DNA of 38,879 nucleotides from Quadrisphaera sp. (GTDB lineage: Bacteria > Actinomycetota > Actinomycetes > Actinomycetales > Quadrisphaeraceae), in NCBI GenBank assembly GCA_029257185.1, contig JARICT010000128.1, positions 1-38,879 on the forward strand, given 5' to 3'. The notes under the pieces are model-generated. The model made no database searches, was not told where the DNA came from, and worked only from the letters and a program-made list of their open reading frames with translations. Positions 6,452 through 23,272 of this stretch are shown here, one piece after another (the first letter of the stretch is position 1; each line of letters begins with the position of its first letter). Position numbers and translations under genes: made by a program.

Positions 6452-7195
6452 ATGGGCACCCCTCTGCCGCGGCACAGCACCGCGCGGCCGCGCACCCGGC
6501 TCATCGCCGTGACGGTGGTGCTCGTGGTGCTCGCCGTCATCGTCGCGGCCGTGCTCCTGCGCCCGGGGCGGGGGGAGCCGGACGACGCCGGGGCCTCCAC
6601 GACGGCGGAGGCGAGCGAGCCCGCCGCCGCGGAGCCGGGAGCGCCGGCCGGGGGCCGGACCCCTGACGACGCCCCGACGTCTGATGACGCCCCGGCGCCC
6701 GACGACGCCGCGCCGGCCGGTGACGAGCCGCTGGCACCGCCGCCGCCCGCCGCCGGTGACGCCCGCGTGGCGGCGCCCCCGCCGGAGCAGCCCGTCGGCA
6801 CCGCCACGGGTGCTCCCGTGGGCGTGGGCGCCGCGGCGCCGCTGGCCGACGGCGTGAGCGCGACGGTGAGGACGGTGACCCCGGTCCAGACCACGGCGCA
6901 AGGTCCTGGCGAGAGGGCGGGCGACGGAGCGGTGGTCCGCCTCGAGGTGCGCAACGACGGCGCCGGGCCGGTGGACCTCTCCACGCTGACCGTCACCGCG
7001 TCGGCGCGGGGCGAGACCCCGGCGCCCCCGAGCTCCAGCGGTGTCGCTGATCCGCTCGCCGGTCCGCTCGACGTCGGGCAGGTGCGCGCCGGCACCTACG
7101 TCTTCACGCTGCCGCCCGGATCCCCGGCCTCCTCCCTCGTGCTGCGGGTGGGCCTCGCGGGGAGCGCCACCGTGGCCACGGTGCGCGCCGGGTAG
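6452..7195 (+). CDS. Membrane-anchored protein with DUF4352-like C-terminal beta-sandwich (paralog 1 of 3)
   Basis: Unknown function, 247 residues. A single N-terminal membrane segment (about 15-37: LIAVTVVLVVLAVIVAAVLL) is followed by an acidic, Ala/Pro/Asp-rich spacer to about residue 125. The C-terminal domain has the pattern VSATVRTVTPVQTTAQGPGE, VVRLEVRNDGAGPVDLSTL, GTYVFTLP and LVLRVGLAGSATVATV. That resembles the DUF4352 / telomere-repeat-binding-factor-like extracellular beta-sandwich. The same domain recurs in the genes at 7298 and 17995. The ATG at 6452 is the start that leaves a normal signal anchor. The domain name is by resemblance only. Confidence 0.7.
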   Translation: MGTPLPRHSTARPRTRLIAVTVVLVVLAVIVAAVLLRPGRGEPDDAGASTTAEASEPAAAEPGAPAGGRTPDDAPTSDDAPAPDDAAPAGDEPLAPPPPAAGDARVAAPPPEQPVGTATGAPVGVGAAAPLADGVSATVRTVTPVQTTAQGPGERAGDGAVVRLEVRNDGAGPVDLSTLTVTASARGETPAPPSSSGVADPLAGPLDVGQVRAGTYVFTLPPGSPASSLVLRVGLAGSATVATVRAG

Positions 7196-7297
7196 CGGCG
7201 CGGACGGGCAACCGACCCCGTCTCACGCTCCGCACCGGCCGCGGACGATGTGTGACGTTTTGGCACGCTTTTGCTCCGCGTGGGACAGGCTGGCCGC

Positions 7298-7942
7298 ATG
7301 AGCCAGGTGCCGACCCCGCCCACCGAGCCCGCTGCCGCCCCTCGGCGACGGCGGCGAGCCGCCACAGCCGTCGGGATCACCGCGGCGGGCGCGGTGGTGG
7401 CACTGGTCGCCGTCGGGTGGCCGCAGGCCGCGGGCGAGCGCGCCAGCGATGCCGTGAGCGGCGACCGGGCGCAGGCGGTGGCCGGTGAGAGCCTGCTGGA
7501 GGGCGGCGCGGCCGAGCCGCCGCCGGCCGAGCCGGTGCCCGGGGACGGCGCCGAGGAGATGCTCCCGCCCGTCCCGGTCGGCGAGGACGTCGCCCTGCAG
7601 GCCGACCTGACCGCCACCGTCGACGGGGTCGAGGACGTCACCATCACCCCGCGCGGCCCGGGCGACGTCGCCGGCCCGGGCGAGGCCGTGCGCCTCACGC
7701 TGAACAACGGCACGGACGAGCCGGTCGACCTCGCGACGCTCGCGGTCACCGCGACGGCGCCGGGCGACGTGCCCGCGATCCCCAGCGACGACCCCTCCGC
7801 GGAGCCCCTCACGGGCACCCTCGCGCCGGGCGAGGAGCGGGCCGCCACCTACGTCTTCCGCGTCCCCGAGCCGGGCGCGGCGCTGAGCATCGAGGTCGGC
7901 GTGAACACCTCGTCCGACGTCGCCGTCATCAGTGCGCCATGA
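7298..7942 (+). CDS. Membrane-anchored DUF4352-like protein (paralog 2 of 3)
   Basis: 214 residues. A short basic cytoplasmic N-terminus (RRRRRAAT) precedes one membrane segment (about 25-42: VGITAAGAVVALVAVGW). A linker follows, then the shared C-terminal domain: LQADLTATVDGVEDVTI, RGPGDVAGPGEAVRLTLN, DEPVDLATLAVTATAPGD, AATYVFRVPEPG and SIEVGVNTSSDVAVI. It lies 34 nt upstream of the large propeller protein at 7977 and is almost certainly co-transcribed with it. The same pair order recurs at 17995/18998. An anchor or partner role for the anchorless propeller protein is inference. The ribosome binding site is weak. Confidence 0.72.
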   Translation: MSQVPTPPTEPAAAPRRRRRAATAVGITAAGAVVALVAVGWPQAAGERASDAVSGDRAQAVAGESLLEGGAAEPPPAEPVPGDGAEEMLPPVPVGEDVALQADLTATVDGVEDVTITPRGPGDVAGPGEAVRLTLNNGTDEPVDLATLAVTATAPGDVPAIPSDDPSAEPLTGTLAPGEERAATYVFRVPEPGAALSIEVGVNTSSDVAVISAP

Positions 7943-7976
7943 CCCCCACGCCTCGCGACCAGTCCCAGGAGCCGAG

Positions 7977-10400
7977 ATGACCCCTCCCCCCGCGCCGCGC
8001 CGCGCCGCTGCCGCCCGTGCCGCACGCGCCACCGCGTCCGCCGCCCTCGCCGCCGCCCTGGTGGTGCCGACGCTCGCCCTGGCAGCCGGGCCCGCGCCCC
8101 GCGACGCCCGGACCGGTGCCGGCGCCGGTACGGACGCCACGGCCCCCGCCGCCGCGGAGCTCCCGACCACCGTCGCGGCCGACGCCCTGCCCACGGTGCA
8201 GGTCGACGGCGTGGTGTGGGCCCAGGTGATCGTCGGCGACCGCGTCTACGTCACCGGGGAGTTCGCCAACGCCCGGCCCGCCGGCGCGAGGCCGGGCCGG
8301 TCGCAGACGTCGCGGACCAACCTCCTGGCGTACGACCTCGCCACCGGGGAGCTCGTCACCTCGTGGGCGCCGACCCTCAACGCGCAGGGCCTGACCATCG
8401 CCGCGTCCCCCGACGGCCGCCGCCTGTACGTCGGCGGCGACTTCACGCAGGCCAACGGCGAGGCGCACGACCGCATCGTCGCCCTCGACACGGCGACCGG
8501 CGCCGTCGTGCCGGGCTTCGCGGCGGGCGTCAACAGCCAGGTCCGCGCCATCGTCCCCGTCGGGGACACCGTCTACGTGGGCGGGAGGTTCAGCAAGGCG
8601 CTGGGGCAGCCGCGCACCCGGCTGGCGGCCTTCGCGGCCGCCGACGGGGCCCTGTCCGCGTGGGCGCCGGCCGCCGACGGCGAGATGTTCAGCGCCACCG
8701 CTCCGCCCGGGACCGGCACGCTGGTGGTCGGCGGGCGTTTCACCACGCTCGCGGGCACCGACGCCTACGGCCTCGGCGCGGTCGACCTCGCCACCGGCGC
8801 AGCCCGTCCCTTCGCCGCGAACCGGGTGGTGCGCAACGCCGGCCCCAACGCGGCCATCTACTCCCTCACCAGCGACGACCGGCAGGTCTACGGCTCGGGC
8901 TACACGTTCGGCCCCGGGGGGAACCTCGAGAACTCCTTCGCCGCGGAGTCCCGCACCGGCGAGCTCACGTGGGTCAACGGCTGCCTGGGGGACACCTACT
9001 CGCTCGCCGCCGTCGGGGATGTCCTCTACACCGCGGGCCACCCCCACGACTGCTCGATGGTCGGGGGGAACCCCGAGGTGAGCCCTCGCCAGTGGCAGCG
9101 GGCGCAGGCCATGACCACCGGGGCGAGCCCGCTGGGCCGGACGAACACCTCCGGCCCGTTCGCCGGGCGCGCCGCCCCCGAGCTGCTGCACTGGCTGCCG
9201 ACGTTCGCCGCGGGCCAGTACACCGGGCAGTTCCAGGGCCCGTGGAGCGTCGCGGCGAGCGGTGACCACGTGGTGATGGGCGGGGAGTTCCCGCGCGTCA
9301 ACGGCACGGGCCAGCAGGGGCTCGTGCGGTTCACCACGCGGGCCACCGCGCCCAACCTGTCCGGTCCCCTCACCGGGCCGCCGAACGGCGAGACCCCGAT
9401 CGCCCTCACGCTCACCAGCCCGGCGCCCGGCCAGGTGCGCGCCACGTTCGCGAGCGCCTGGGACCGTGACGACGCGGAGCTGACGTACGAGCTGCTGCGC
9501 GGTGACGGCGACGGCGAGGTGGCGGCCACGCAGCAGGGCGCGTCGTCGTGGTGGGACCGCCCGACCCTGTCCGTCGCGGACGACGCGGCGCCCGGCGGGA
9601 CCCTCACCTACCGGGTGCGGGTCAGCGACCCCGACGGCAACGAGATCGTCTCGGACCCGGCCACCGTGGACGTGGTGGCCCCGCCGACCGACCCCGAGCC
9701 CCCGCCCCTGCCGACCGGCTCCTACGCGAAGGTCGTCGACGCCGACGGGCCGGTGCACTGGTGGCGCCTCGGCGAGCGCGCCGGGACCCGGGCGAAGGAC
9801 CGCGCCGGGGCCGCCGACCTCGCCCTCGACCCCTCGGCGAGCCGGCGGGTGCCCGGGGGCACGGGTGACGGCGACCTCGCGACCTTCTTCACGGGGACGG
9901 CGCTGGTGCCCGGCAGCACCGCTCGGCCCGAGCGAGGGCTGCAGTCCTTCAGCCAGGAGCTGTGGCTGCGCACCAGCACCACCCGCGGCGGCAAGCTCAT
10001 GGGCTTCGGCGACTCCAGGACCGGCCCGAGCAGCCAGTACGACCGTCAGCTGTGGCTGGACGGCGCCGGCCGGCTGCGCTTCGGCGTCAACGACGGCAGG
10101 CTCGCGGTGGTGGCCTCACCGACCGCCGTCAACGACGGCCGGTGGCACCACGTCGTGGCGACGCTCGGGGCGCGGGGGGCGACGCTGTACGTCGACGGGA
10201 AGGCCGTCGCGACCGACGCGAGCGCCACGAGGGCGCAGCCGTTCGACGGCTACTGGCGCGTGGGCGGGGACACCCTCGCCGGGTGGCCGTCGCGGCCCCC
10301 GTCGGACGCGGTGGCCGGGGACCTCGACGACGTGGCCGTGTACCCGGGGGTGCTGAGCGCCGAGCAGGTCGCGGAGCACGCCGCCGCCGGGGGGCTCTGA
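7977..10400 (+). CDS. Secreted beta-propeller / Fn3-like / LamG protein (modular surface protein A)
   Basis: 807 residues with a signal peptide (ASAALAAALVVPTLALAAG). Residues about 45-460 form a propeller of repeats such as VYVGGRFSKALGQPRTRLAAF and AYDLATGELVTSWAP, resembling DUF5122/delta-60-type blades. They contain a conserved GDTY...YTAGHPHDCS segment with two cysteines that could form a disulphide. A Fn3-like domain follows (about 470-575, FASAWDRDDAELTYELLRG). The last 220 residues are a LamG/concanavalin-like domain (VHWWRLGERAG, SFSQELWLRTS, WHHVVATLGARGATLYVDG). No C-terminal anchor is visible. ATG 7977 has AGGAG upstream. Probably an extracellular matrix or adhesin protein; the ligand is unknown. 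Confidence 0.8.
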   Translation: MTPPPAPRRAAAARAARATASAALAAALVVPTLALAAGPAPRDARTGAGAGTDATAPAAAELPTTVAADALPTVQVDGVVWAQVIVGDRVYVTGEFANARPAGARPGRSQTSRTNLLAYDLATGELVTSWAPTLNAQGLTIAASPDGRRLYVGGDFTQANGEAHDRIVALDTATGAVVPGFAAGVNSQVRAIVPVGDTVYVGGRFSKALGQPRTRLAAFAAADGALSAWAPAADGEMFSATAPPGTGTLVVGGRFTTLAGTDAYGLGAVDLATGAARPFAANRVVRNAGPNAAIYSLTSDDRQVYGSGYTFGPGGNLENSFAAESRTGELTWVNGCLGDTYSLAAVGDVLYTAGHPHDCSMVGGNPEVSPRQWQRAQAMTTGASPLGRTNTSGPFAGRAAPELLHWLPTFAAGQYTGQFQGPWSVAASGDHVVMGGEFPRVNGTGQQGLVRFTTRATAPNLSGPLTGPPNGETPIALTLTSPAPGQVRATFASAWDRDDAELTYELLRGDGDGEVAATQQGASSWWDRPTLSVADDAAPGGTLTYRVRVSDPDGNEIVSDPATVDVVAPPTDPEPPPLPTGSYAKVVDADGPVHWWRLGERAGTRAKDRAGAADLALDPSASRRVPGGTGDGDLATFFTGTALVPGSTARPERGLQSFSQELWLRTSTTRGGKLMGFGDSRTGPSSQYDRQLWLDGAGRLRFGVNDGRLAVVASPTAVNDGRWHHVVATLGARGATLYVDGKAVATDASATRAQPFDGYWRVGGDTLAGWPSRPPSDAVAGDLDDVAVYPGVLSAEQVAEHAAAGGL

Positions 10401-10401
10401 C

Positions 10402-10427
10402 CGGTCCTGCCCCTCGCCGGACCGTTT
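10402..10427 (+). terminator. Candidate terminator after surface protein A
   Basis: Two nucleotides past the stop codon, CGGTCC (10402-10407) and GGACCG (10419-10424) form a 6-bp stem with an 11-nt loop, followed by TTT. It is short, but placement and T-run fit an intrinsic terminator. Confidence 0.4.
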
Positions 10428-10436
10428 GGTCGGGTT

Positions 10437-10480
10437 GCACCACTTGTGGCTCTCACGACCATTAGTGTCACTGCTTGTGC
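10437..10480. promoter_or_regulatory. Two BldD-like inverted repeats upstream of surface protein B
   Basis: Two sites of form NCAC-N5-GTGN lie 31 bp apart centre to centre, about three helical turns: GCAC-cactt-GTGG (10437-10449) and TCAC-tgctt-GTGC (10468-10480). The second overlaps the perfect 9-bp palindrome AGTGTCACT (10464-10472). TAGTGT at 10463-10468 could serve as a -10, but no convincing -35 is present. Similar inverted repeats occur at 12388, 17962, 25183, 33626 and 33659. Confidence 0.4.
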
Positions 10481-10540
10481 ACCCTCCGTGACTGGAGGGC
10501 GACGCAGAGCCGCTACCTGATGGTCGATCCCGGGAGTCCC

Positions 10541-12256
10541 ATGAGCACAGCCGCCCCCCTCCAGCCCCGCGTCGACCGCAGAGCACCGAAGCGTCGCTCC
10601 GTCGCCTCGGCCCTGGCCGTCTCGCTGGTCGTCGCAGGGCTGGGGGTCCTCGACCTGGTGGCTGCGACCCCCGCGCCCGCGGCGCCGACCGGCTCGCCGG
10701 TGACGGCCGCGGTCGACGCCGACGACCCGTCGCACCACTGGCGCCTGGGCGAGAGCGCCGACGGGCCGGAGGCGGTGGCGGGCGCGGACCGCGCCGGCGC
10801 GAGCGACCTGGTGGTGCCCGCGTCGGCGGTGCGGGGCGTCCCGGGCGCCAGCGCCGACGGTGACGCCGCCACCGCCTTCGCCGGGGGCGGGGCGGTGGTC
10901 GGCGAGGGCTCCGAGCGGGAAGGGGGGCCCCAGTCCTTCAGCCTGGAGGTGTGGCTGCGGACCACCGACCCGGGGGGCGGCAAGATCCTGGGCTTCGAGG
11001 ACGAGCGGTCGGGAGAGAGCCGCCACTACGACCGGCACCTGTGGATGGGTGACGACGGGAGGGTGTCCTTCGGCGTGTACGACGGCCGCACGAGCGTGGT
11101 GCGCTCCGCCGGCGGGCTCGACGACGGGGACTGGCACCACCTGGTCGCCACCTACCGCGGCTCGGTGATGAGGCTCTTCGTCGACGGCGAGATGGTCGGT
11201 GAGCGGGACGGTGTGACGCGGGCCCAGCCGTTCGCCGGGTTCTGGCGCGTGGGTGACGGCCGCCTCGACGGGTGGCCGTCACCGCCTGCCGCCACGGCCT
11301 TCACCGGGGACCTCGACGAGGTCGCCGTGTACGACGCGCCGCTGAGCCCCGAGCGGGTGGCCGCCCACCGCGCCGCCGTGACCGACCGGCCGCAGGCCCT
11401 GCGCCCGCCGGCCCCGCCGGCCCCGCCGGGCCAGGGAGCCGTCGTCCGCCCCACCGACTTCGGCAGCTACCGGCCCGACGCCTCGACCACCGGCTCCTAC
11501 GGCCGGTTGACCCCCCACGCCGGGGACCTGACCATCACCACGCCGGGCCAGGTGGTGGAGGGCCTGGACGTCTCGGGGGTGCTGCGCATCAAGGCGGACG
11601 GGGTCACCGTGCGCCGGACCACCGTGCGCGGCGGCGACCGCGGCCCGGAGTACCGCGGGGCGATCCTCATGGCGCTGGAGGGCGACCAGCGGGGCGCGGT
11701 GATCGAGGACGTGACGGTGCGCCCCTCGCACCCCGTGGTGGGCATGAACGCCGTGCAGGTCTCCTCCGCGACGGTGCGCCGCGCCGACATCAGCCGGGCG
11801 ACCGACGGCATCCTGGTCTACGGGGACGACGTCACGCTGGTCGGGAACTACGTGCACCACCTCGTCCACTACCCCCGGGACCCCTCCCAGCGCGACGGCA
11901 GCCACGACGACGCGGTCCAGGTCGAGGGGGGCTCGCGCACCTCCATCGTCGGGAACTCCCTCTCCAGCGGGCACAACGCCGGCATCCAGGTCACGCAGAA
12001 CCACGCGCGCGTCCGCGACCTGCTGATCGACCGCAACCACCTCGGGGGCGGCTACCTCACCGTCAACACCTCGGAGAAGGGCAAGGGCCCCTACTCGGGC
12101 TTTCGCATGACGGACAACCGCTTCGCGGGGGACGAGCGCAACGGTGACGGGGTCCAGGCGGCCATCACCGGTCCCACCCGTGACGCGGCGACCATCCGGG
12201 GGAACGTCGTGGCGACCACCGGGAAGAGCATCCGGGTCGTCGACGCGGACTCGTGA
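10541..12256 (+). CDS. Secreted LamG / right-handed beta-helix protein (modular surface protein B)
   Basis: 571 residues with a signal peptide (ASALAVSLVVAGLGVLDLVA). A LamG/concanavalin-like domain (about 54-283: HHWRLGESADG, SFSLEVWLRTTD, DWHHLVATYRGSVMRLFVDG, YDAPLSPERVAAHRA) closely resembles those of proteins A and C. After a Pro-rich linker comes a parallel beta-helix (about 304-571) with pectate-lyase-like coils: VTVRRTTVRGG, AVQVSSATVRRADIS, DGILVYGDDVTLVGNYV, GSHDDAVQVEGG, SIVGNSLSSGHNAGIQV. The HDDAVQ segment is a common feature of polysaccharide-associated beta-helix proteins. Catalytic residues for a lyase cannot be assigned. ATG 10541 has GGGAG only 4 nt upstream; ATG 10520 is an alternative. 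No anchor is seen. Confidence 0.78.
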   Translation: MSTAAPLQPRVDRRAPKRRSVASALAVSLVVAGLGVLDLVAATPAPAAPTGSPVTAAVDADDPSHHWRLGESADGPEAVAGADRAGASDLVVPASAVRGVPGASADGDAATAFAGGGAVVGEGSEREGGPQSFSLEVWLRTTDPGGGKILGFEDERSGESRHYDRHLWMGDDGRVSFGVYDGRTSVVRSAGGLDDGDWHHLVATYRGSVMRLFVDGEMVGERDGVTRAQPFAGFWRVGDGRLDGWPSPPAATAFTGDLDEVAVYDAPLSPERVAAHRAAVTDRPQALRPPAPPAPPGQGAVVRPTDFGSYRPDASTTGSYGRLTPHAGDLTITTPGQVVEGLDVSGVLRIKADGVTVRRTTVRGGDRGPEYRGAILMALEGDQRGAVIEDVTVRPSHPVVGMNAVQVSSATVRRADISRATDGILVYGDDVTLVGNYVHHLVHYPRDPSQRDGSHDDAVQVEGGSRTSIVGNSLSSGHNAGIQVTQNHARVRDLLIDRNHLGGGYLTVNTSEKGKGPYSGFRMTDNRFAGDERNGDGVQAAITGPTRDAATIRGNVVATTGKSIRVVDADS

Positions 12257-12335
12257 CTCATTTACTACTTTTAGCTACTTAGAGTGACTTCACGGTTGTC
12301 CTGGACGGTGCTCTCGGCCTTTAGTGGGACGTGCG

Positions 12336-12364
12336 GTGACACAACGCCACGGTGTCTCTATCGT
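12336..12364 (+). promoter_or_regulatory. Promoter of surface protein C / GT2 operon
   Basis: GTGACA (12336-12341) and TATCGT (12359-12364) are separated by exactly 17 bp, a good match to a housekeeping-type promoter (5/6 and 4/6 to consensus). An imperfect inverted repeat GTGACAC / GTGTCTC spans the -35 and the spacer, so it could be a repressor site. The AT-rich stretch 12257-12300 lies just upstream. Expected transcription start is near 12371, giving a leader of about 75 nt. Confidence 0.55.
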
Positions 12365-12377
12365 CTCTCCTCAGATG

Positions 12378-12400
12378 CTCCCCGTGGTCACGGGGAGTGA
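12378..12400 (+). promoter_or_regulatory. Leader hairpin overlapping a TCAC-N5-GTGA box
   Basis: CTCCCCGTG (12378-12386) and CACGGGGAG (12389-12397) are perfect 9-nt complements around a GT dinucleotide; as RNA the innermost pairs would open to give a larger loop. The hairpin sits just after the predicted transcription start and about 48 nt before the start codon. The same DNA contains TCAC-gggga-GTGA (12388-12400), a perfect inverted half-site pair. It could act as an RNA structure, an operator, or both. Confidence 0.45.
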
Positions 12401-12444
12401 TGCTGATCCTCGCCCGATGGGCGGGGGTGGACTGGAGACGACCG

Positions 12445-15400
12445 ATGCGCCCCGTGGCAGCCCCCTCCCGGACGTCCGCTGCGAGCACCCGGCCCCGCCG
12501 GTGGGCCCGCGGCGCGATGCTCACCGTCCTCACCGGATCGCTCGCGGTGGCCGGTGCGCCGGCGGCGTCCGCGGCGCCCGGCGACGTGCCCGCAGCCGCG
12601 GCGCGGCCCGGGCTCGCCGCGCTGGAGGACCCCCGGGGCCCGGCCGGTCTGCCGGCCACGGTCAGCTCGACGCCGCTGCCCACCGCGCAGGTGGACGGCG
12701 TGGTGTGGGCGCAGGTCGTGTCCGGCACCACGGTCTACGTCACGGGGGAGTTCACGAGCGCACGGCCGCCCGGCGCCGCCCCCGGCTCCGGCGAGGTGCC
12801 GCGCTCGAACGCCATGGCCTACGACCTGCGCACCGGCGAGCTCCTGGACTGGGCGCCGTCGCTGAACGCCCAGGGGCTGGCGGCCGCCGCCTCGCCCGAC
12901 GGGTCGCGCATCTATCTCGGGGGGGACTTCACCCAGGTCGACGGGCAGGCGCGCTACCGCGTCGTCGCGCTCGACGCCGCGACCGGAGCCCTGGACCCGG
13001 GGTTCGTCCCGGGGCTCAACGCCCGCGTCCGCTCGCTCGTGGCGACCGGCGACACGGTCTACGCCGGCGGGGTCTTCACCCAGGCGAACACCTACCAGCG
13101 GGCGCACCTCGCCGCCTTCACCGCCGACGGCGGCGAGGTCACCACGTGGGACCCCCGGGCCTCGATCACCGCGGGGGACCTGCCGTCAGGAACCCTGAGC
13201 AAGGCCCCCGCCACCCCCGAGGTCCTCACGATGGTGGCTCCCGAGGGCACCGGGACCCTGGTGCTCGGGGGGCGGTTCACCCGTCTCGGGGGCGCGAAGG
13301 CGTACGGGCTCGGCGCCGTGGACCTGCTCACCGGGGAGCCCCGGCCGTTCGCCGCCGAGGCCACGGTGCGTGACGCCGGCGTCGACTCGGGCATCACCGC
13401 GCTCGCCGCCAGCGGCGCCACGGTGTTCGGGACGGGCTACGTCTACGGGCGCGGCGGGAACCTCGAGGGGTCCTTCGCCGCCGACGCGAGCACGGGCGAG
13501 GTCGGCTGGGTCAACGACTGCATCGGGGACACCTACGGGGTGGCCCCCGTGGGCGAGGTCCTGTACACGATCGGGCACGCCCACGACTGCTCGGCGATCG
13601 GCGGGCACCCGGAGAGCTCCCAGAGCCGGCGGGCCTACCAGCCCGCGCTCGCGACCACCGCGGCGCCGAGCCCGGCGGGGCGCGACGTCGTCGGCGGTCC
13701 CTTCGCCGGCCGCCCGGCCCCCGAGCTCCTCCACTGGCTGCCGCAGCTCGAGCCGGGGCGCTACACCGGTCAGGTCCAGGCGGCGTGGGCCATCACCCAC
13801 GCCGACGGGTACCTGCTGCTCGCCGGGGAGTTCCCCTCGGTCAACGGCCAGCGCCAGCAGTCGCTCGTGCGCTTCGCCGCGCCGGGCGCCGGTCCGGCGC
13901 CCACCAGCGCCGACAAGCCCCGGGGCTACGCGGAGCTGACCCCCGTGGCGGCCGCCGCGGAGCCGGGGCGGGTCCGGCTCTCCTGGCAGAGCGCCTGGGA
14001 CCGGGACACCGCCGGTCTGCGCTACGAGGTGCTGCGTGACGGCGCGGTGATCTCCGAGACGGTCGAGCCCAGCACGTGGTGGCACCGGCCCCGTCTCGCC
14101 GTCACCGACGACGACGCGTCCCTGGCGGTGGGCGGCCCGCGCGCCTACCGGGTGCGCGTCACCGACGGCTCGGGGCTGAGCATGACCTCGGCGCCCCTGA
14201 GCGTCGACGTGGCGCCGGGGCAGAGCCCGCCCCCCGCACCGTCGCCGGGTGCGGACGCGGTGGCGGCCGACGCCCCCCGCCACCACTGGCGCCTGGACGG
14301 GGCGTCCGCCGACGCCGGCAGGGACTCCTCCGGCGCCGACGACCTGACGCTGCCCCCCAGCGTGCGCGGCGCCGCCTCCGGGCCGGGGCCGGGCGGCGCC
14401 ACGGGCGTGACCTTCTCGGGCGGCTCCGCGGCGAGCTCGATCAGGGAGGCGGGCCCGCTGCAGCTCTCCCAGGAGCTCTGGGTGCGGACCACCACGCGGA
14501 CCGGCGGGAAGCTGCTCGGCTTCGAGGACTCCCCGAGCGGCGCCAGCACGCGGTACGACCGCCAGCTGTGGATGGGCGACGACGGGAAGGTCCGCTTCGG
14601 CATCAACGACCGCAAGGTCACCGTGGTGACCAGCCCGGGTGCGCTCAACGACGGCGGCTGGCACCACGTCGTCGCCAGCTTCGGCGGCGGGGTCATGGAG
14701 CTCTTCGTCGACGGGGAGCGCGTCGCGGCCCAGGGCGGGGTGCGCCAGGCCGAGCAGATGGACGGGTACTGGCGCGTCGGCGGCGGGACGCTGGCCGGCT
14801 GGCCAGCGGCCTCGAGGACGACGGACTTCTCCGGCGACCTCGCCGGGGTGGCGCTCTACGGGGCTCCGCTCAGCCCCGAGCGCGTGGTCGCCCACCGCGA
14901 CGCCGCGCTCGTCGCCGCTCCGCCGGCGCCGCCAGCGCCGGCCGAGCCCCCGGTGGTGCCGTCGGACCCCGACCCGGCCGACCCCGAGCAGCCGGAGCAG
15001 CCCGACCCGGAGCAGCCCGACCCCGAGGACCCGGTGGTGCCTCCCGCTGGCTCCCCGTCGGTCTCCGACGACTTCGCCCGCGACGTCGCCCGCGGGTGGG
15101 GCGAGGCCGCGGTCGGCGGCGCGTGGTCGACGTCGCCGGTGGGCTCCACCTCCGTCGCCGGCGGCCAGGGCCGGCTCACCGTGGCTCCGGGCCGCGGCGC
15201 CACGGCGCTGCTCACCGGCGCGCCCACCCAGGACGCGGACGTGCGCGTCGACCTCGGCGTCATCCGTCCGAGCCCCACGGCCAGCACGTGGGCCGCGGTC
15301 GTCGGGCGCTCGGTCACCCGGGCGGACGACTACCGGCTGAAGCTGCGTCCGGCGCCCGACGGCTCCCTGAGCCTCACGGTGCTCGCGCGGGTCGGGGGGA

Positions 15401-15702
15401 GCGAGCGGCCGCTGGCGACCGCGGCGGTGCCGCGAGAGGTCGCGGACGCCGACGCGCCGCTGTCGGTGAGGTTCCAGGTCGCGCCGGGAGCCGCGCCGGG
15501 CACGACCGCGCTCGCCGCCTCGGTGTGGCAGCGCGGCGCCCCGGAGCCGGCGGCGTGGCAGGTGCGCGCCGACGACGCCACCCCCGAGCTCGCCGGGCCG
15601 GGAGGGGTGGGCGTGTGGACCTACCTGTCGAGCAGGACGCCGGACGGGCAGCAGCTGACGGTGTCGGCTGACGACCTCGAGGTGAGGCCGTCGGCGCCAT
15701 GA
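12445..15702 (+). CDS. Large secreted propeller / Fn3 / LamG / C-terminal jellyroll-like protein (modular surface protein C)
   Basis: 1085 residues, the longest and most complete member of the family. Signal peptide ends GAPAASAAPG. Order: beta-propeller (about 60-485; IYLGGDFTQVDGQARYRVVAL, GDTYGVAPVGEVLYTIGHAH, ELLHWLPQLEPG), Fn3-like (about 494-590; WQSAWDRDTAGLRYEVLRDG), LamG (about 606-827; HHWRLDGASAD, QLSQELWVRTTT, WHHVVASFGGGVMELFVDG), an acidic Pro/Glu/Gln linker (EQPDPEQPDPEDP), and a C-terminal domain (about 873-1085; DDFARDVARGWGEAAVGGAW, DYRLKLRPAPDGSLSL) shared with protein D. ATG 12445 has GGAG 7 nt upstream; starts from 12352 would lie in the promoter. The stop overlaps the next start as ATGA. 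No anchor is visible. Confidence 0.8.
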   Translation: MRPVAAPSRTSAASTRPRRWARGAMLTVLTGSLAVAGAPAASAAPGDVPAAAARPGLAALEDPRGPAGLPATVSSTPLPTAQVDGVVWAQVVSGTTVYVTGEFTSARPPGAAPGSGEVPRSNAMAYDLRTGELLDWAPSLNAQGLAAAASPDGSRIYLGGDFTQVDGQARYRVVALDAATGALDPGFVPGLNARVRSLVATGDTVYAGGVFTQANTYQRAHLAAFTADGGEVTTWDPRASITAGDLPSGTLSKAPATPEVLTMVAPEGTGTLVLGGRFTRLGGAKAYGLGAVDLLTGEPRPFAAEATVRDAGVDSGITALAASGATVFGTGYVYGRGGNLEGSFAADASTGEVGWVNDCIGDTYGVAPVGEVLYTIGHAHDCSAIGGHPESSQSRRAYQPALATTAAPSPAGRDVVGGPFAGRPAPELLHWLPQLEPGRYTGQVQAAWAITHADGYLLLAGEFPSVNGQRQQSLVRFAAPGAGPAPTSADKPRGYAELTPVAAAAEPGRVRLSWQSAWDRDTAGLRYEVLRDGAVISETVEPSTWWHRPRLAVTDDDASLAVGGPRAYRVRVTDGSGLSMTSAPLSVDVAPGQSPPPAPSPGADAVAADAPRHHWRLDGASADAGRDSSGADDLTLPPSVRGAASGPGPGGATGVTFSGGSAASSIREAGPLQLSQELWVRTTTRTGGKLLGFEDSPSGASTRYDRQLWMGDDGKVRFGINDRKVTVVTSPGALNDGGWHHVVASFGGGVMELFVDGERVAAQGGVRQAEQMDGYWRVGGGTLAGWPAASRTTDFSGDLAGVALYGAPLSPERVVAHRDAALVAAPPAPPAPAEPPVVPSDPDPADPEQPEQPDPEQPDPEDPVVPPAGSPSVSDDFARDVARGWGEAAVGGAWSTSPVGSTSVAGGQGRLTVAPGRGATALLTGAPTQDADVRVDLGVIRPSPTASTWAAVVGRSVTRADDYRLKLRPAPDGSLSLTVLARVGGSERPLATAAVPREVADADAPLSVRFQVAPGAAPGTTALAASVWQRGAPEPAAWQVRADDATPELAGPGGVGVWTYLSSRTPDGQQLTVSADDLEVRPSAP

Positions 15703-16703
15703 GCGTCGGTGCGAGCGTCGGTGCGAGCGGCGCGGTGGTCGTCGCGGTGCTGACCTACCGTCGCCCGGGGGACCTGGCCGAGGTCCTGCCCCTGCTGGTG
15801 TCCCAGGCGGGCGCGCTGGGCCGCGGCGCGAGCGTGCTCGTCGTGGACAACGACCCCTCGGGCTCCGCGCGCGAGCTCGTCGGCGCCCACCCCGGCGCGG
15901 CCTACGTCCACGAGCCGGCGCCGGGGATCGCGGCGGCGCGCAACCGGGCCCTGGACCAGGCCACGGCCTCGGGCGCCGCGCTGCTCGTCTTCGTCGACGA
16001 CGACGAGCGCCCGGTGCCCGGCTGGCTCGCGCTGCTCGTCGGCACGTGGGAGGCCACCGGCGCCGCAGCGGTGGTGGGGCCGGTGGCCTCCCGCTTCGAG
16101 GTCCCGCTCTCGCCGTGGGTCGAGGCCGGGGGCTTCTTCGAGCGGCGCCGCCCCGCGACCGGGACCCGCGTGGACGTGGCGGCCACCAACAACATCGCCC
16201 TGGACCTCGCCGTCGTGGGGCGCGCCGGGATCCGCTTCGACGAGCGGTTCGGGCTGTCCGGCGGCTCCGACACGCTGTTCAGCCGCCAGCTCCACGCGAG
16301 CGGGGCGTCGATGGTGTGGTGCGACGAGGCGCTCGTGCTCGACGTGGTGCCTGCGGCGCGCACCACGGCGCGATGGGTCCTGGCCCGCGCGCTGCGCAGC
16401 GGCAACAGCTGGGCGCGCACGTCCCTGGCGCTCGCCGCGGCCCACGACCACCCGGCGGCGAAGCTGGCGGTGGCCCAGGTCCGGCTGCTGCTCCGCGGAG
16501 GCGTCCGCACCGCCGCGGGCGGGGCGCAGCTGCTGGCGGGGCTGGTGAGGAGCGCTCTTGCCGGCCCGTCCGGCGGCGGGGGTCTGCGCGCGCAGGCCCG
16601 CGGGGCCCGCACGCTCGCGCGCGGCCTCGGGATGCTCGGAGGAGCGGCGGGCTGGACCTACCGGGAGTACCGGCGCCCCGCGGCGGGTCGGGTCAGCCCC
16701 TGA
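15699..16703 (+). CDS. Glycosyltransferase family 2
   Basis: GT-A fold sugar transferase, 334 residues, cytoplasmic or membrane-peripheral. The N-terminal nucleotide-binding strand VVVAVLTYRRPGDL, then VLVVDNDPSG, GIAAARNRALDQA, and the metal-binding FVDDDERPVPGW (DxD-type) are clear. ATNNIALDL and FDERFGLSGGSDTLFSRQL form the acceptor side. Sugar donor and acceptor are not readable. Its ATG overlaps the stop of surface protein C (ATGA), so it is translationally coupled to a secreted protein rather than to other EPS genes. Residues 2-9 are a short repeat (SVGASVGA). Its 3' end overlaps the convergent CWB2 gene by 11 nt. Confidence 0.9.
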   Translation: MSVGASVGASGAVVVAVLTYRRPGDLAEVLPLLVSQAGALGRGASVLVVDNDPSGSARELVGAHPGAAYVHEPAPGIAAARNRALDQATASGAALLVFVDDDERPVPGWLALLVGTWEATGAAAVVGPVASRFEVPLSPWVEAGGFFERRRPATGTRVDVAATNNIALDLAVVGRAGIRFDERFGLSGGSDTLFSRQLHASGASMVWCDEALVLDVVPAARTTARWVLARALRSGNSWARTSLALAAAHDHPAAKLAVAQVRLLLRGGVRTAAGGAQLLAGLVRSALAGPSGGGGLRAQARGARTLARGLGMLGGAAGWTYREYRRPAAGRVSP

Positions 16704-17859
16704 CGACGGTGGCACCCAGCAGGTCCGCGGCCTGGGCGAGCACCGCGTCGGACACCGCACGGGTCCCGCCGACGACGACGAGGCGCCGCACCTGTCCGCG
16801 CCGCTCCGACAGCGCGGCCGCCGTGGCCGGCGTCAGCGCGTCGGGGGCGGTCAGCAGCACCGGCACGCCGTAGGTCCCCCCGGACAGGGCGTCGGGGAAG
16901 TCCTCGCCGGTGGTCAGCACCAGCCACTCGTCGTCGTCACCCGCCGTGCGCAGCAGCTCGACGGCGGTCTCGTAGCGGTCCGAGCCGGCGGCGCCCAGCA
17001 CGCGCAGGCCGCTCGCGGGGCCCGTCAGGGCTGCAGCGGCCCGCGCCGCCGGTCCGCCGACGGCGATGAGGGTGCCCTTCCCGCCGGCGGCGTCGGCGCA
17101 CCGGGCCAGCGCCTCGGCGGTCGCCGCGGGGAGCCAGTCCCCGTCGGTGAGGAGCAACGGCCGCTGGGCCCGGGCGGACGCCGCGGCGGAGGCCCCGTCG
17201 GCGAAGTCGGCGCCCGTGGACAGGATGACGTCGCACCGTTCCCGCCCGTCCCCGGTGGCGACCGCGCCGGCCACCGCGACCGCGGTGGCGTAGCGGTCCG
17301 CGCCCCCGACCCGCTCGACCGTCCACCCGCCGGCGCGCACCGCGTCCGCCACGTTCGCGGACAGGGCTGCCTCGCCGCCGAGCAGGCGGACCGTCGCCCC
17401 GGCAGGCAGGTGCTCGCGGAGCTCGGCGGCCACGCGGGGGTCCAGGCCGGTGCGCGGCGTCAGCAGCAGCGGCGCGCCGTAGCGGTCGGCCAGCGCCGTG
17501 GCGGTGAGGGCGTCGGGGTAGCTCTCCGCGCTGGCGATGACCACGGACGGCTGCGCGGGGGCGCCGTAGAGGTTGCGGGACTCGTCGCGGTCACGGGTCA
17601 CCGCGAGCGCCGTGGCGACCCGGTCGGGGCCGGACAGGCGCGCGGCGCGGGGTTCGGGGAGCTCTGACGCGGCGGGCGCGGTGGCCGTCGTGGTCGAGGA
17701 GGTCTGGGCGCCGGGCTGCGTGCTGCCCGGCGCCTCGCCGACGACGGAGGCCACGATGACGGCGACCCCCGCGAGGGTCGTGGCGGCCGGAGCGGCGACG
17801 GACCCCCAGCGAGAAGGACGTCGGTCCGCCGGGGCGAGGGGGCGCTCAGCGGTGTGCAT
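16693..17859 (-). CDS. Cell wall-binding repeat 2 (CWB2) protein
   Basis: 388 residues. After a single N-terminal membrane/signal segment (about 17-37: APAATTLAGVAVIVASVVG) and a Ser/Thr/Ala linker, three CWB2 repeats (Pfam PF04122 type) fill the protein. Each begins with a variant of RLSGPDRVATALAV (also RVGGADRYATAVAV and VLGAAGSDRYETAVEL) and contains a VIASAESYPDALTA-like strand and a VVVGGTRAVSDAV-like end. CWB2 modules bind cell-wall polymers non-covalently in Gram-positive bacteria. ATG 17859 is chosen because AGGAG lies 7 nt upstream. It has no added catalytic domain, so it is probably structural. It is divergent from the gene at 17995. Confidence 0.88.
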   Translation of the reverse strand: MHTAERPLAPADRRPSRWGSVAAPAATTLAGVAVIVASVVGEAPGSTQPGAQTSSTTTATAPAASELPEPRAARLSGPDRVATALAVTRDRDESRNLYGAPAQPSVVIASAESYPDALTATALADRYGAPLLLTPRTGLDPRVAAELREHLPAGATVRLLGGEAALSANVADAVRAGGWTVERVGGADRYATAVAVAGAVATGDGRERCDVILSTGADFADGASAAASARAQRPLLLTDGDWLPAATAEALARCADAAGGKGTLIAVGGPAARAAAALTGPASGLRVLGAAGSDRYETAVELLRTAGDDDEWLVLTTGEDFPDALSGGTYGVPVLLTAPDALTPATAAALSERRGQVRRLVVVGGTRAVSDAVLAQAADLLGATVVRG

Positions 17860-17939
17860 GGGCTTGCTCCTGAGGGCTTCGGGGACGCGGCGCTCGGACA
17901 CGGTGAACGTCCGACGGTAGGTGCTGGACGCACCCTCCG

Positions 17940-17974
17940 GATGCATTCTGTGCATCATCCCTCACGCAGCGTGT
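17940..17974. promoter_or_regulatory. Two operator-like palindromes between CWB2 gene and the 17995 cassette
   Basis: GATGCA-ttctg-TGCATC (17940-17956) is a perfect 6-bp inverted repeat. Six nucleotides later TCACGCAGCGTGT (17962-17974) contains the perfect palindrome CACGC-A-GCGTG. It agrees with the BldD operator pattern TNACNC(A/T)GNGTNA at every fixed position except the last. The box lies 21 nt before the ATG at 17995 and about 105 nt upstream of the divergent CWB2 start, so either gene could be controlled. Confidence 0.5.
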
Positions 17975-17994
17975 TGGTCCGTCAGAGTGATCTC

Positions 17995-18918
17995 ATGGAC
18001 GAGACGCCGTTGACCGAGGGTGCAGCGCCCGGCTCGCCCGCTGGCGGAGGCGCCCAGAGCCGCTCGAGCCGCGTGCGCCGGTGGGTCGCGGGGGGCGTCG
18101 CGGTGGTGGCGGCGGCCGCGGTGGTCGTGGCGGCCGTCGGCCTGCGGCCGGCCGAGCCGCCTCGATCGGCCTCCGCGGGCGAGGGGAGCTCGACCACCCC
18201 CGTCATCACGGCGCCGGGGGCGCGCGGCTCCGCGGGCGCCGCGTTCGCCCTCGACGGTGAGGACGTCAGCGGCGCGTCCCTGCCGGGCGCCGCGTCCCTG
18301 CCGGTCACAGGGCCGGACCGTGGGAAGGGTGGCCGACCGGCGATCCCGCTGTCGCTGCCCTGGAAGGCCGGGACGCCGTGGGCGGGCTCCCCCTCCGCGG
18401 CGGGGAGGACGGCGGCAGGAGGTCCTCCGGGCGGCGCCCCGGCCGGCGGCGCGTCGGGTGGTGCGTCGGGTGGCGCGTCGGGCCCTGCTCCGGCCCCCGC
18501 TGGCTCGGTGGTCCTGGAGCCGGTGACCGTCGGCACCGACGTCCGGCTGGGACGAGCCGTGCAGACCCGGGTGGAGTCCGTCACCGCTGCCCGCACCCGC
18601 GCGCTCGGGCCCGGCGACATCGCCGGGCCCGGAGCGGTGGTGGTCCTGGAGGTGCGCAACACCTCCGACCGGCCCGTGGACCTCGCCGGCCTGTCGGTGA
18701 CGGCCACCGACGCCGACGGCGACCCCGCCATCCCCAGCGCCGGCAAGCCCTCCGACGTCCTCGCCGGCACCCTGCCGGCCGGTGAGGACGCCACCGGCAC
18801 CTACGTCTTCGGCCTGCACCGCGCCGCGCCGCGCACCGATCCGAGCGTCCCCTCGGGGCTGCGGCTCGAGGTCGGGCTGTCCAGCGCCCCCGAGGTCGCC
18901 GTGGTGGTGACCCGATGA
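17995..18918 (+). CDS. Membrane-anchored DUF4352-like protein (paralog 3 of 3)
   Basis: 307 residues. One N-terminal membrane segment (about 27-47: WVAGGVAVVAAAAVVVAAVG) is followed by a long disordered Gly/Ala/Pro-rich stretch with tandem GGAS units (about residues 145-165). The C-terminal domain matches the other two copies: VRLGRAVQTRVESVTA, LGPGDIAGPGAVVVLEVRN, DRPVDLAGLSVTATDADGD, ATGTYVFGL and RLEVGLSSAPEVAVVV. It lies 79 nt upstream of surface protein D, repeating the 7298/7977 arrangement. ATG 17995 is preceded only by a weak GAG-type ribosome site. Function unknown. Confidence 0.72.
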   Translation: MDETPLTEGAAPGSPAGGGAQSRSSRVRRWVAGGVAVVAAAAVVVAAVGLRPAEPPRSASAGEGSSTTPVITAPGARGSAGAAFALDGEDVSGASLPGAASLPVTGPDRGKGGRPAIPLSLPWKAGTPWAGSPSAAGRTAAGGPPGGAPAGGASGGASGGASGPAPAPAGSVVLEPVTVGTDVRLGRAVQTRVESVTAARTRALGPGDIAGPGAVVVLEVRNTSDRPVDLAGLSVTATDADGDPAIPSAGKPSDVLAGTLPAGEDATGTYVFGLHRAAPRTDPSVPSGLRLEVGLSSAPEVAVVVTR

Positions 18919-18997
18919 CGGCACCGGCACCGGCACCCGCCCCGAGACCGAGCCACGTCCGAGACCGCACCCGCGACGACACCGCACCGGAGCCACG

Positions 18998-21457
18998 ATG
19001 ACCACCACGACCCCCTCCCTGCGCCTGCGGGCCCGTCGACGGCTCGCCGGCCTCGCCGCCCCGGCAGCCCTCGTGCTCGCCGCGAGCCTCCCCCTCGCCG
19101 CTCCGGCGACGGCCGCACCCGTCGAGCCCACCGACGCCCGGGCGGCGGCGGCGCCGCGGCTCCCCGCCACCGTCCCCGCCACCGTCTCCGCCGACGCGCT
19201 GCCGACCGTCCAGGTCGACGGGGTGGTGTGGGCGCAGGTCATCGTCGGGAAGCGGGTCTACGTCACCGGCTCGTTCTCCGCCGCCCGCCCCGCCGGCGCG
19301 GCCCGGGGCCAGGAGGAGACCCCGCGCGCCAACCTCCTCGCCTACGACCTCGAGACCGGTGAGCTGGTCTCGTCGTGGGCCCCGCGCCTGAACGCCCAGG
19401 GCCTGGCCATCGCCGCCTCGCCCGACGGCAGCCGCGTCTACGTCGGCGGGGACTTCACCACCGCGAACGGCGCGCGCCGCGAGCGTCTGGTCGCCCTGGA
19501 CGCCGCCACCGGCGCCCTCGTCGACGGCTTCGCGCCGCGCGTCAACGCCCGCGTGCGCGCCGTCACCGCCGTCGGCTCCGCGGTCTACGCCGGCGGCTCC
19601 TTCACGACGTCGGGCGGCCAGGCCCGCACGCGCCTCGCGGCCTTCCGCGCGGCCGACGGCGCGCTCACGCCGTGGGCCCCGGCGGCGGACCGCGAGGTGT
19701 TCGCGATCGTCGCTCCGCCCGGCGCCGGCACCCTCGTGGTCGGCGGGCGGTTCACCCGGCTCGGCGGTGCCTCGTCGTACGGCCTCGGCGCGGTGACCCT
19801 GGCGAGCGGCGTCGCGTCGCCCTTCGCGGCGAACAAGGTCGTGCGCAACGCCGGCAGCAACGCCGCCATCTACGCCCTGAGCACCGACGGCGCCCGCGTG
19901 TACGGGGCGGGCTACGTCTACGGACCCGGGGGCAACCTCGAGAACACCTTCGCCGCGGACGCCCGCACCGGCGCGCTCGCCTGGGTGAACGGCTGCCGCG
20001 GCGACACGTACGACGTCGCGCCCGCCGGCGGCGTGCTCTACACCGTCGGCCACCCGCACCAGTGCTCGGCGGTCGGCGCCTTCCCGGAGACCCGCCCGCG
20101 GCAGTGGCAGCGCGCCCAGGCGATGACCGCGGCGCCCTCGCCCCGCGGGCGCAAGAACACGTCGGGGGCCTTCTCCGGGCGCCCGGCCTCCGAGCTGCTC
20201 CACTGGCTGCCGAGCCTGGACGTCGGGAAGGTCACCGGGCAGTCCCAGGCCGCGTGGGCGATCGACGCCGCCGACGGCTACGTGGTCCTCGGGGGGGAGT
20301 TCCCCCGCGTCAACGGCTCCGCGCAGCAGGGCCTCGTGCGCTTCCGTGCCCGCGACGCGGCCCCCCACGCCTCGGGCCCGATCGGCTACGCGCCGCTCGC
20401 GCCGGCCGCCTCGGTCACCGGCCCGGGCGCCGTCTCGCTGCGGTGGACCAGCGCGTGGGACCGGGACGACGCGGTGCTCACCTACGAGGTGCTGCGCGCC
20501 AGCGGGCGCGGCCCCGCCGAGGTGGTCGCGGTGCAGGACGGCGCCTCGTCGTGGTGGAAGCGCCCGGCCCTGTCCGCCGAGGACGCCGGCGCGCCCGCCG
20601 GCGAGGTGACCTACCGGGTGCGCGTCAGCGACCCGGACGGCAACACCATGACGTCGACCGCCACCACCGTGACCGTCGCCGCAGGGGCTCCCGGGTCACC
20701 CGAGCCGGCGCCGACGCCGACTCCGACGCCTCCCGTGGCCCCGGAGCCCCCCGAGCCTCCGGTGGGTCCTGACCCGCCCCAGCCACCGGCCCCGTCGTCG
20801 GGCGCGAGCGACGCCTTCTCGCGGGAGGCCGCCGCGTCGTGGGGCGCCGCGGACGTCGGCGGTCCCTGGTCGCTGACCGGTCCCGCCTCGGCCTTCGCGG
20901 TGCGCGGCGGCGAGGGCACCATCACCGTCGCCCCCCGCCAGGGCGTGGAGGCCGACCTCGCCGGCGTCTCGGTGCAGGACGTCGACGCGAGCGTCACGCT
21001 CTCGGGGACGGTGGGCAGCTACGCGGCGCTGGTGGTCCGCCGCGTCGACGCCGGCACCGACTACCGGCTCCAGCTGCGCGGGCTCGACGACGGGTCCGTG
21101 GGGCTCTCCCTGAGGAGGCGGTCCGGCGGCGTCGAGACGGTGCTGTCCTCCACCACGCTGGCGCCCGGGACCACGGGGCCGGGCGAGGCGCTGAGGGTGC
21201 GGGTGGTCGCCGTCGGCTCCGGGAGCAGCGGCCCCGTGACGCAGCTGCGCGCCGCGGCGTGGCCGGTGGGCGGGGCGTCGTCCGCGGCGCCGTCGGCGTG
21301 GGCGCTCGCCGCCCAGGACGCCGCGCCGGAGCTCGCGGCGCCCGGCGGGGTCGGCGTGGCCGCCTACCGCTCGGGCCTCGTCGAGGCGGGCGCGACCCTG
21401 GGCGTCGACGACCTCGCCGTGGGTGCCGGCACCCCGGAGGTGCTCACGACGCCCTGA
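18998..21457 (+). CDS. Secreted propeller / Fn3 / C-terminal jellyroll-like protein (modular surface protein D)
   Basis: 819 residues, signal peptide ending PLAAPATAAP. The beta-propeller (about 50-460) is very close to that of protein A: LPTVQVDGVVWAQVIVGKRV, VYVGGDFTTANGARRERLVAL, GDTYDVAPAGGVLYTVGHPH, ELLHWLPSLDVG. A Fn3-like domain follows (about 463-565), then a Pro/Thr linker (PAPTPTPTPPVAPEPPEPP). The C-terminal domain (about 605-818: SDAFSREAAASWGAADVGGP, DYRLQLRGLDDGSVGLSL) is shared with protein C. LamG is absent, unlike A, B and C. GGAG lies 6 nt before the ATG. There is no C-terminal anchor. It is convergent with the following glycosyltransferase, 14 nt apart. Confidence 0.8.
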   Translation: MTTTTPSLRLRARRRLAGLAAPAALVLAASLPLAAPATAAPVEPTDARAAAAPRLPATVPATVSADALPTVQVDGVVWAQVIVGKRVYVTGSFSAARPAGAARGQEETPRANLLAYDLETGELVSSWAPRLNAQGLAIAASPDGSRVYVGGDFTTANGARRERLVALDAATGALVDGFAPRVNARVRAVTAVGSAVYAGGSFTTSGGQARTRLAAFRAADGALTPWAPAADREVFAIVAPPGAGTLVVGGRFTRLGGASSYGLGAVTLASGVASPFAANKVVRNAGSNAAIYALSTDGARVYGAGYVYGPGGNLENTFAADARTGALAWVNGCRGDTYDVAPAGGVLYTVGHPHQCSAVGAFPETRPRQWQRAQAMTAAPSPRGRKNTSGAFSGRPASELLHWLPSLDVGKVTGQSQAAWAIDAADGYVVLGGEFPRVNGSAQQGLVRFRARDAAPHASGPIGYAPLAPAASVTGPGAVSLRWTSAWDRDDAVLTYEVLRASGRGPAEVVAVQDGASSWWKRPALSAEDAGAPAGEVTYRVRVSDPDGNTMTSTATTVTVAAGAPGSPEPAPTPTPTPPVAPEPPEPPVGPDPPQPPAPSSGASDAFSREAAASWGAADVGGPWSLTGPASAFAVRGGEGTITVAPRQGVEADLAGVSVQDVDASVTLSGTVGSYAALVVRRVDAGTDYRLQLRGLDDGSVGLSLRRRSGGVETVLSSTTLAPGTTGPGEALRVRVVAVGSGSSGPVTQLRAAAWPVGGASSAAPSAWALAAQDAAPELAAPGGVGVAAYRSGLVEAGATLGVDDLAVGAGTPEVLTTP

Positions 21458-22672: not shown

Positions 22673-22680
<8 letters not shown>
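21472..22680 (-). CDS. Glycosyltransferase family 4
   Basis: GT-B sugar transferase of 402 residues. The N-terminal half shows VLVAHPSRERYGSDRQCLES and ADVVYVSTLI-type Rossmann strands (here RPDVVYVSTLITPLW). The C-terminal donor-binding domain has LVLVGRLSPRKGTDVAVAAL, TLVGDAF and the EX7E element EPFGNTAVEAML, followed by RDGLLVAPGD. The GTG at 22680 overlaps the end of the upstream GNAT gene by 8 nt, so the two are one operon. The sugar is unknown; an EPS assembly role follows from context. Confidence 0.92.

Positions 22681-23265
<585 letters not shown>

Positions 23266-23272
<7 letters not shown>

Follow-up and report, generated by a model that had tools for sequence, protein, structure and literature searches.

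The 38,879-base contig JARICT010000128.1 of Quadrisphaera sp. (the window; a complete contig with a G+C content of 76.9%, from a genome of 3.05 Mb in 178 contigs) encodes four large modular proteins, A, B, C and D, in an array that belongs to an exopolysaccharide locus. The array also includes three small proteins, s1, s2 and s3, each of which has a single DUF4352-like domain and is anchored in the membrane at its N-terminus; two lie upstream of A and one upstream of D. At the level of whole genomes, this small partner is paired with the β-propeller that A, C and D share. The family is widespread in Actinomycetota and apparently unpublished. On balance, A-D and their small partners are probably the protein part of a capsule or biofilm-matrix exopolysaccharide locus, in which A, C and D would act as matrix adhesins. 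The genes of the array and their modules are listed here (TM: transmembrane; CTD: C-terminal sandwich domain; ORF: open reading frame).

6452-7195, plus strand: s1, small partner protein of the array, TM-anchored and carrying a single DUF4352-like domain (s2/s3 paralogue, 42% identity; N-terminal TM segment; profile match 1.8e-44)
7298-7942, plus strand: s2, small DUF4352-like protein with a TM anchor, encoded immediately before A (profile; DUF4352 E=0.026)
7977-10400, plus strand: protein A, whole gene, 807 residues, with signal peptide, propeller, Fn3-like sandwich and LamG (ORF, Pfam, alignment)
8181-9362, plus strand: propeller of A, DUF5122/Rax2-like (Pfam DUF5122 29.7 bits, cut-off 27)
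9363-9677, plus strand: Fn3-like sandwich of A (aligned to D; fold from the D model; no Pfam match)
9723-10397, plus strand: LamG of A (Pfam Laminin_G_3 6e-23)
10541-12256, plus strand: protein B, whole gene, 571 residues, with signal peptide, LamG and β-helix (ORF, Pfam)
10700-11395, plus strand: LamG of B, sister of the LamG of C (Pfam 8e-24; tree 100/98)
11456-12253, plus strand: right-handed β-helix of B, probable polysaccharide-acting domain (Pfam Beta_helix 3e-8; AlphaFold2; Foldseek)
12445-15702, plus strand: protein C, whole gene, 1085 residues, with signal peptide, propeller, Fn3-like sandwich, LamG and CTD (ORF, Pfam, alignment)
12676-13914, plus strand: propeller of C (Pfam DUF5122 34.2 bits)
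14251-14919, plus strand: LamG of C (Pfam 6.6e-17)
15052-15699, plus strand: CTD of C (43% identity to the CTD of D; no credible Pfam match)
17995-18918, plus strand: s3, small DUF4352-like protein with a TM anchor, encoded immediately before D (profile; start inferred as the ATG after the divergent gene)
18998-21457, plus strand: protein D, whole gene, 819 residues, with signal peptide, propeller, Fn3-like sandwich, linker and CTD (ORF, Pfam, alignment, model)
19193-20374, plus strand: propeller of D, read as seven-bladed (AlphaFold2 strands; Foldseek)
20375-20677, plus strand: Fn3-like sandwich of D (seven-strand sandwich in the model)
20798-21442, plus strand: CTD of D (β-sandwich, pLDDT about 90)

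Five modules are common to the set: the propeller, the Fn3-like sandwich, LamG, the β-helix and the CTD. All four ORFs have signal-peptide-like N-termini. Between copies, identity is 58.5-68.8% for the propeller, 47-58% for the Fn3-like part, 49-55% for LamG and 43% for the CTD; this similarity is far beyond chance (A against D, E=3e-214; A against C, 1.4e-213; LamG of A against B, 7e-63). The claim of a sequence-only reading of this DNA, that four large proteins are drawn from one kit of parts, thus holds: all four are where it located them, their modules are 43-69% identical, and the landmarks it quoted (GDTY...GHxHxC, ELLHWLP, SAWDRD, WHHVVA, DYRL) are all found in the alignments. Its inventory of four is right for A-D and incomplete in other respects; it missed the three small paralogous proteins, the first at 6452, and the glycosyltransferase (GT2) and wall-binding genes between C and D. 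A genome-wide search finds no further copy of the A-D modules in the source genome.

The propellers of A, C and D score 29.7, 34.2 and 27.4 bits, respectively, against DUF5122 (Pfam gathering cut-off 27), and the LamG domains of A, B and C score 82, 85 and 62 bits against Laminin_G_3 (cut-off 27.6). The propeller and Fn3-like part form a unit of about 540 residues with invariant LPTxQxxGVVW and CxGDxY...HxHxC motifs. The Fn3 label given earlier fits the sandwich fold seen in the D model; the Fn3-like part of A, C and D has no match to Fn3 in Pfam. No Pfam model exists for the CTD, 16 sequences of which return only scattered weak Pfam matches, and neither the CTD nor the small protein has a credible sequence relative in the PDB. 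The possibility that the CTD is a diverged LamG was rejected, as profile comparison gives it a probability of 1%. An AlphaFold2 model of D, built with 34 homologues (mean predicted local distance difference test score, pLDDT, 84), has a propeller at residues of about 60-455, counted as seven-bladed, a seven-strand Fn3-like sandwich at ~460-560 and a CTD sandwich at 601-815, mostly at pLDDT 80-95. A disordered linker (566-600) separates the two sandwiches. The shared segments, which had been read as independent domains, fold separately in this model.

A, C and D carry a signal peptide but no wall or membrane anchor. The same holds more widely: in 93 of 100 modular proteins of the family, the CTD or another module reaches to within 15 residues of the C-terminus. 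None of the 100 has a TM tail and five have an LPXTG-like motif; wall sorting was rejected on these counts.

The array is surrounded by genes for Wzx, Wzy, Wzz with an ATPase domain, GT4 and GT2 glycosyltransferases and DUF4012, which together make up a Wzx/Wzy-dependent polysaccharide locus. The sequence-only reading had overlooked both this locus and the partner with its membrane anchor, which give the best hints about function. Minus-strand genes downstream of D encode a GT4, the flippase, Wzy, the Wzz-ATPase, a DUF1972 glycosyltransferase and the DUF4012 protein. The remaining features of the locus are as follows.

15699-16703, plus strand: family 2 glycosyltransferase (GT2), its start overlapping the stop of C (ATGA) (Pfam Glycos_transf_2 1e-12)
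16693-17958, minus strand: protein carrying three cell-wall-binding (CWB2) repeats, its gene divergent from s3 (Pfam)
21472-22926, minus strand: family 4 glycosyltransferase (GT4a) of the polysaccharide locus (Pfam 2e-29)
22673-23272, minus strand: ORF for a GNAT acetyltransferase, extending into the 5' part of the GT4a ORF (ORF scan)
23585-25108, minus strand: PAS-GGDEF diguanylate cyclase within the polysaccharide locus (domain scan)
25234-26715, minus strand: Wzx-type flippase (Polysacc_synt_3 1e-64; start approximate)
26712-28391, minus strand: Wzy-type polymerase/O-antigen ligase family (Wzy_C 3.5e-15)
28118-29242, plus strand: glycosyltransferase-like ORF between the minus-strand Wzy and Wzz genes (ORF scan)
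29254-31014, minus strand: Wzz-like chain-length regulator with ATPase domain (Wzz and ParA/AAA_31)
32215-33648, minus strand: DUF1972/GT4 glycosyltransferase (GT4b) (domain scan)
34436-36256, minus strand: DUF4012 protein (Pfam 7e-33)

Since the GNAT ORF overlaps its 5' part, GT4a probably starts further inside. The diguanylate cyclase suggests control of the matrix by c-di-GMP. A housekeeping run at 1612-5738 on the plus strand (tRNA-Gln, GlmU, ribose-phosphate pyrophosphokinase, L25 and peptidyl-tRNA hydrolase) directly precedes the start of the polysaccharide locus.

The association with polysaccharide genes extends to relatives. Profiles of the window's GT4a, GT4b, GT2 and Wzz were applied to the surroundings of the propeller gene in 47 related loci of at least 18 kb. 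At least one of the four genes is present in 36 of the 47 loci and at least two in 29; homologues of GT4a occur in 28, of GT4b in 25 and of GT2 in 21. None of 20 random 20-kb stretches has any. As these controls were drawn from six genomes within the order, whereas the test loci mostly represent other genera, the contrast serves as an indication and yields no exact probability. An independently annotated locus of Actinomyces oris combines a sugar transferase, flippase, DUF1972, GT4, GT2, a chain-length protein, a lipoprotein partner and a LamG protein. The CWB2 gene was considered as a core anchor and rejected, being nearby in 0/47 related loci.

The small partners are related to DUF4352 at a distance: 12 of 18 family members match the model (best 1.2e-5), and s2 reaches 15.2 bits against a gathering cut-off of 25.9. 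In relatives, simple pattern rules detect a TM segment in 40 of 72 partners, a lipobox in 24 and either of these in 64. Of 119 genomes of the same order, 23 match the propeller head strongly (E below 1e-150); exactly these 23, and 0/96 others, also match the partner strongly (E below 1e-15). The Fisher p of 5e-25 overstates the case because the cut-offs were chosen after the lists had been seen and the genomes are related. The gap beyond these cut-offs is wide, with the next propeller match at 1e-103 and the next partner match at 2e-8. In 19 of 28 cases the partner gene lies within 1 kb of a propeller gene, usually 75-480 bp upstream.

When 84,980 species genomes were scanned, 199 stretches were confirmed to code for relatives. 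Every one of the best 79 of these loci is labelled Actinomycetota; their genera include Rhodococcus, Arthrobacter, Modestobacter, Geodermatophilus, Blastococcus, Cellulomonas, Mumia and Agreia. The architecture, for which the earlier reading knew of no described system, is indeed without a description in searches on LamG, propeller, DUF4012, DUF5122, exopolysaccharide (EPS) clusters and these genera, made in open-licence literature only, where absence is not proof. It is not isolated, as the 199 relatives testify, and an odd architecture specific to one genome was rejected. Ubiquity in the phylum was rejected as well; among 199 genomes sampled across the phylum, with other families well represented, propeller and partner occur in the source genome only. 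Among relatives the head is constant, whereas LamG repeats number 0-4 and CTD repeats 0-3, and PKD-like domains are variable.

Several loci merit separate mention. Actinomyces oris L148 (NZ_CP116225.1, 289739-319187), in a record called a 415-kb plasmid, is a complete locus that includes two propeller genes, two GT4-type genes and a partner of the lipoprotein kind. Additional ORFs of about 700-1000 residues in L034/L049, L040, L042, L044 and L047 match the CTD profile and have no propeller. L058 and L114, from a metagenome-assembled genome titled Bifidobacterium breve, have the same architecture and near-equal scores as Actinobacteria bacterium IMCC26207 (L059, L117), and the bin is probably mislabelled. 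L061, on a contig named Streptomyces sp. NP160, appears identical to G005 of Quadrisphaera's family; here too the name is probably wrong.

Separate trees of the propeller, LamG and CTD bear out the earlier proposal of duplication followed by domain gain and loss. In the propeller tree (126 sequences), A, C and D come together in a single clade (SH-aLRT 95), within which A and D are sisters (94). The LamG tree (86 domains) unites A, B and C in the same way (99/95) and makes sisters of B and C (100/98). The CTDs of C and D cluster more weakly (92), and the small-protein tree does not resolve s1-s3 as one local clade or otherwise. Local duplication plus domain gain and loss is thereby supported as the origin of A-D. 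The simplest history would start from a duplicated C-like ancestor, because no other complete architecture is as common among relatives as propeller-Fn3-LamG-CTD (26 proteins); A would have kept LamG and lost the CTD, and D would have kept the CTD and lost LamG. Judging from trees and architectures, B may be a C-like LamG that was joined to a β-helix, and the same evidence suggests the individual loss and fusion steps.

The β-helix of B is modelled as right-handed by AlphaFold2 (pLDDT 84.5). Its fold neighbours in Foldseek are a dehydratase, tailspikes, lacto-N-biosidase, chondroitinase, alginate lyase, epimerases and RbmB, the last at E 0.007-0.03. D117, H150, D152, Q155 and Q181 of the β-helix are invariant. 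A PDB sequence search finds no homology to a characterised lyase; the sole match is 1k5c, a GH28 polygalacturonase, and it is weak, with E 0.0012 over the whole sequence and 0.086 for the best stretch. In this weak alignment a conserved D-G faces TDG and HDD faces QDD, residues that we take to be catalytic in 1k5c, while the His of GHG has no counterpart. GH28 is not matched in Pfam. None of the 13 β-helix ORFs in relatives is fused to LamG or a propeller. By its fold, the β-helix of B probably cuts or modifies polymer.

How the parts might work together can be outlined as follows. A, C and D would be exported via their signal peptides and left free of wall and membrane. Their constant propeller-Fn3 head would hold the polysaccharide produced through the Wzx/Wzy/Wzz and glycosyltransferase genes next to the array, and the variable LamG and CTD would grip a second ligand, be it another polymer strand, a cell or an outside surface; each protein would thus be a cross-linker or a two-sided adhesive. 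The DUF4352-like partners, through their TM helix (or lipid in relatives), would tie the layer to the cell or assist release. B would dock on the matrix by its LamG and trim or modify polymer with its β-helix. The adhesin model is proposed because anchorless proteins are tied genetically to polysaccharide genes, as Bap1 and RbmC are; polymer binding, cross-linking, anchoring by the small protein and the enzymatic activity of B are what we infer within it. The 'different binding heads' of the sequence-only reading are conjectural; the parts that vary are the LamG, PKD and CTD repeats, and the propeller is constant. Several observations weigh against this outline. None of the four tested polysaccharide genes is found within about 10 kb in 11 of the 47 related loci, and in 9 of 28 cases the partner is more than 1 kb from a propeller gene. 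No initiating phosphoglycosyl (sugar) transferase was found among the ORFs scanned, the contig ending at 38879. Ligand binding by the modules is itself a supposition drawn from the analysis, and the propeller and CTD of D resemble GH43 enzymes in fold, so that they may yet be catalytic.

This last point leads to an unlikely alternative, in which A, C and D are secreted enzymes acting on glycans, with a glycoside hydrolase-like propeller and CTD, a carbohydrate-binding LamG, and the cell's own exopolysaccharide or foreign glycans as target. GH43 enzymes pair a propeller with a ConA-like sandwich, and GH43 xylosidases are the best Foldseek matches of D, which also matches WDR5-type propellers (WDR5 at a template modelling score, TM-score, of 0.68 by target). 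The propeller alignment contains the invariant residues C333, D336, H352, H354, C356 and E434, and in B, invariant polar residues accompany a fold of lyase/hydrolase type. The GH43 alignments run over about 610-840 columns, possibly covering the CTD sandwich, yet the TM-scores by query are only near 0.2, and the likeness is therefore general and not at family level. Moreover, A, C and D have no match to GH43 or another CAZy-type family in Pfam, their propeller is read as seven-bladed against five blades in GH43, and the extra LamG, PKD and CTD repeats of many relatives suit a structural protein better. No already characterised enzymatic role was found for the family. For B, the enzyme reading may well be right.

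Two further alternatives take the linkage to polysaccharide genes differently. A-D could be glycoprotein substrates to which the glycan of the locus is attached, giving an S-layer-like or glycosylated coat; the array is tightly linked to glycosyltransferases, C translationally overlaps the GT2 gene, and the linkers are of low complexity and rich in Pro, Ser and Thr. These linkers are, however, short and mostly Pro/Asp/Glu, Wzy and Wzz indicate a long polymer, and neither S-layer homology nor an oligosaccharyltransferase was found in the contig, all of which makes this reading quite improbable. We give little credence to an extracytoplasmic complex of propeller protein and membrane-anchored partner that guides polymer export or chain release. 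The perfect genome-level pairing and the Wzx/Wzy/Wzz linkage would suit it, but the propeller proteins have no membrane anchor of their own, and the widely varying number of LamG and CTD repeats and the multiplied paralogues are unlike a conserved machine. Matrix adhesins remain our preferred reading of A, C and D.

Few bacteria have had the proteins that give an exopolysaccharide matrix its cohesion worked out in detail, and the authors of work on Vibrio ask whether a design like two-sided tape is general (PMC10102183). The A-D family is a genetically defined candidate for this design in Actinomycetota. It occurs in the cultured genera Quadrisphaera, Arthrobacter, Rhodococcus, Geodermatophilus, Blastococcus, Cellulomonas and Actinomyces, several of which are soil or stone colonisers. 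The analysis also exposes a domain that has no Pfam model, the CTD, and a consistent partner, both hidden under labels such as 'hypothetical protein' and 'LamG domain-containing protein'; the latter is the existing annotation of one relative in Actinomyces oris.

Among known systems, single modules find counterparts. The DUF5122 (delta-60 repeat)/Rax2-type propellers, whose Pfam model A, C and D pass, are a broad repeat family with no assigned function, in contrast to the specific 540-residue propeller-Fn3 unit found here. Laminin_G_3/ConA-like lectin domains are represented in A, B and C, which pass the Pfam cut-off. The capsule/EPS locus of Bifidobacterium longum 105-A is likewise an actinobacterial polysaccharide locus; the text of the paper on it mentions DUF4012 (PMC5412050), and literature searches showed no propeller-LamG array described there. 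RbmB, a predicted β-helix, is a lyase for Vibrio polysaccharide encoded in the same gene cluster (PMC11637428). Like RbmB and other β-helix polysaccharide lyases, such as WceF of Pantoea stewartii, B has a right-handed β-helix encoded beside polysaccharide genes; unlike RbmB, to which it has no sequence match, B is fused to LamG, and its activity is predicted from fold.

A close parallel exists with Bap1 and RbmC of Vibrio cholerae, whose propellers bind matrix polysaccharide while other domains bind surfaces (PMC10102183). Both sets are secreted and modular, combine a constant β-propeller with variable sandwich or lectin domains and are tied to one polysaccharide system, and in both the paralogues share the propeller and differ in other domains. 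The Vibrio proteins have eight blades and β-prisms, whereas the present set has LamG and CTD, is Gram-positive and actinobacterial, and is always encoded with a membrane-anchored partner. A profile of 16 propellers does not match Bap1 or RbmC in all PDB sequences at E up to 1, nor do they appear among the top 50 fold matches of D in Foldseek. A-D would work like matrix adhesins but are not members of the Bap1/RbmC family by any test run. It is conceivable, though we would stop somewhat short of even confidence, that they represent a separately evolved actinobacterial matrix system, in which an obligate pair of DUF4352-like partner and propeller, with an uncatalogued CTD, holds a Wzy-type exopolysaccharide to cells and surfaces. 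If so, a design in which a propeller engages the polysaccharide, variable domains engage the surface and a β-helix enzyme provides release would have been reached more than once.

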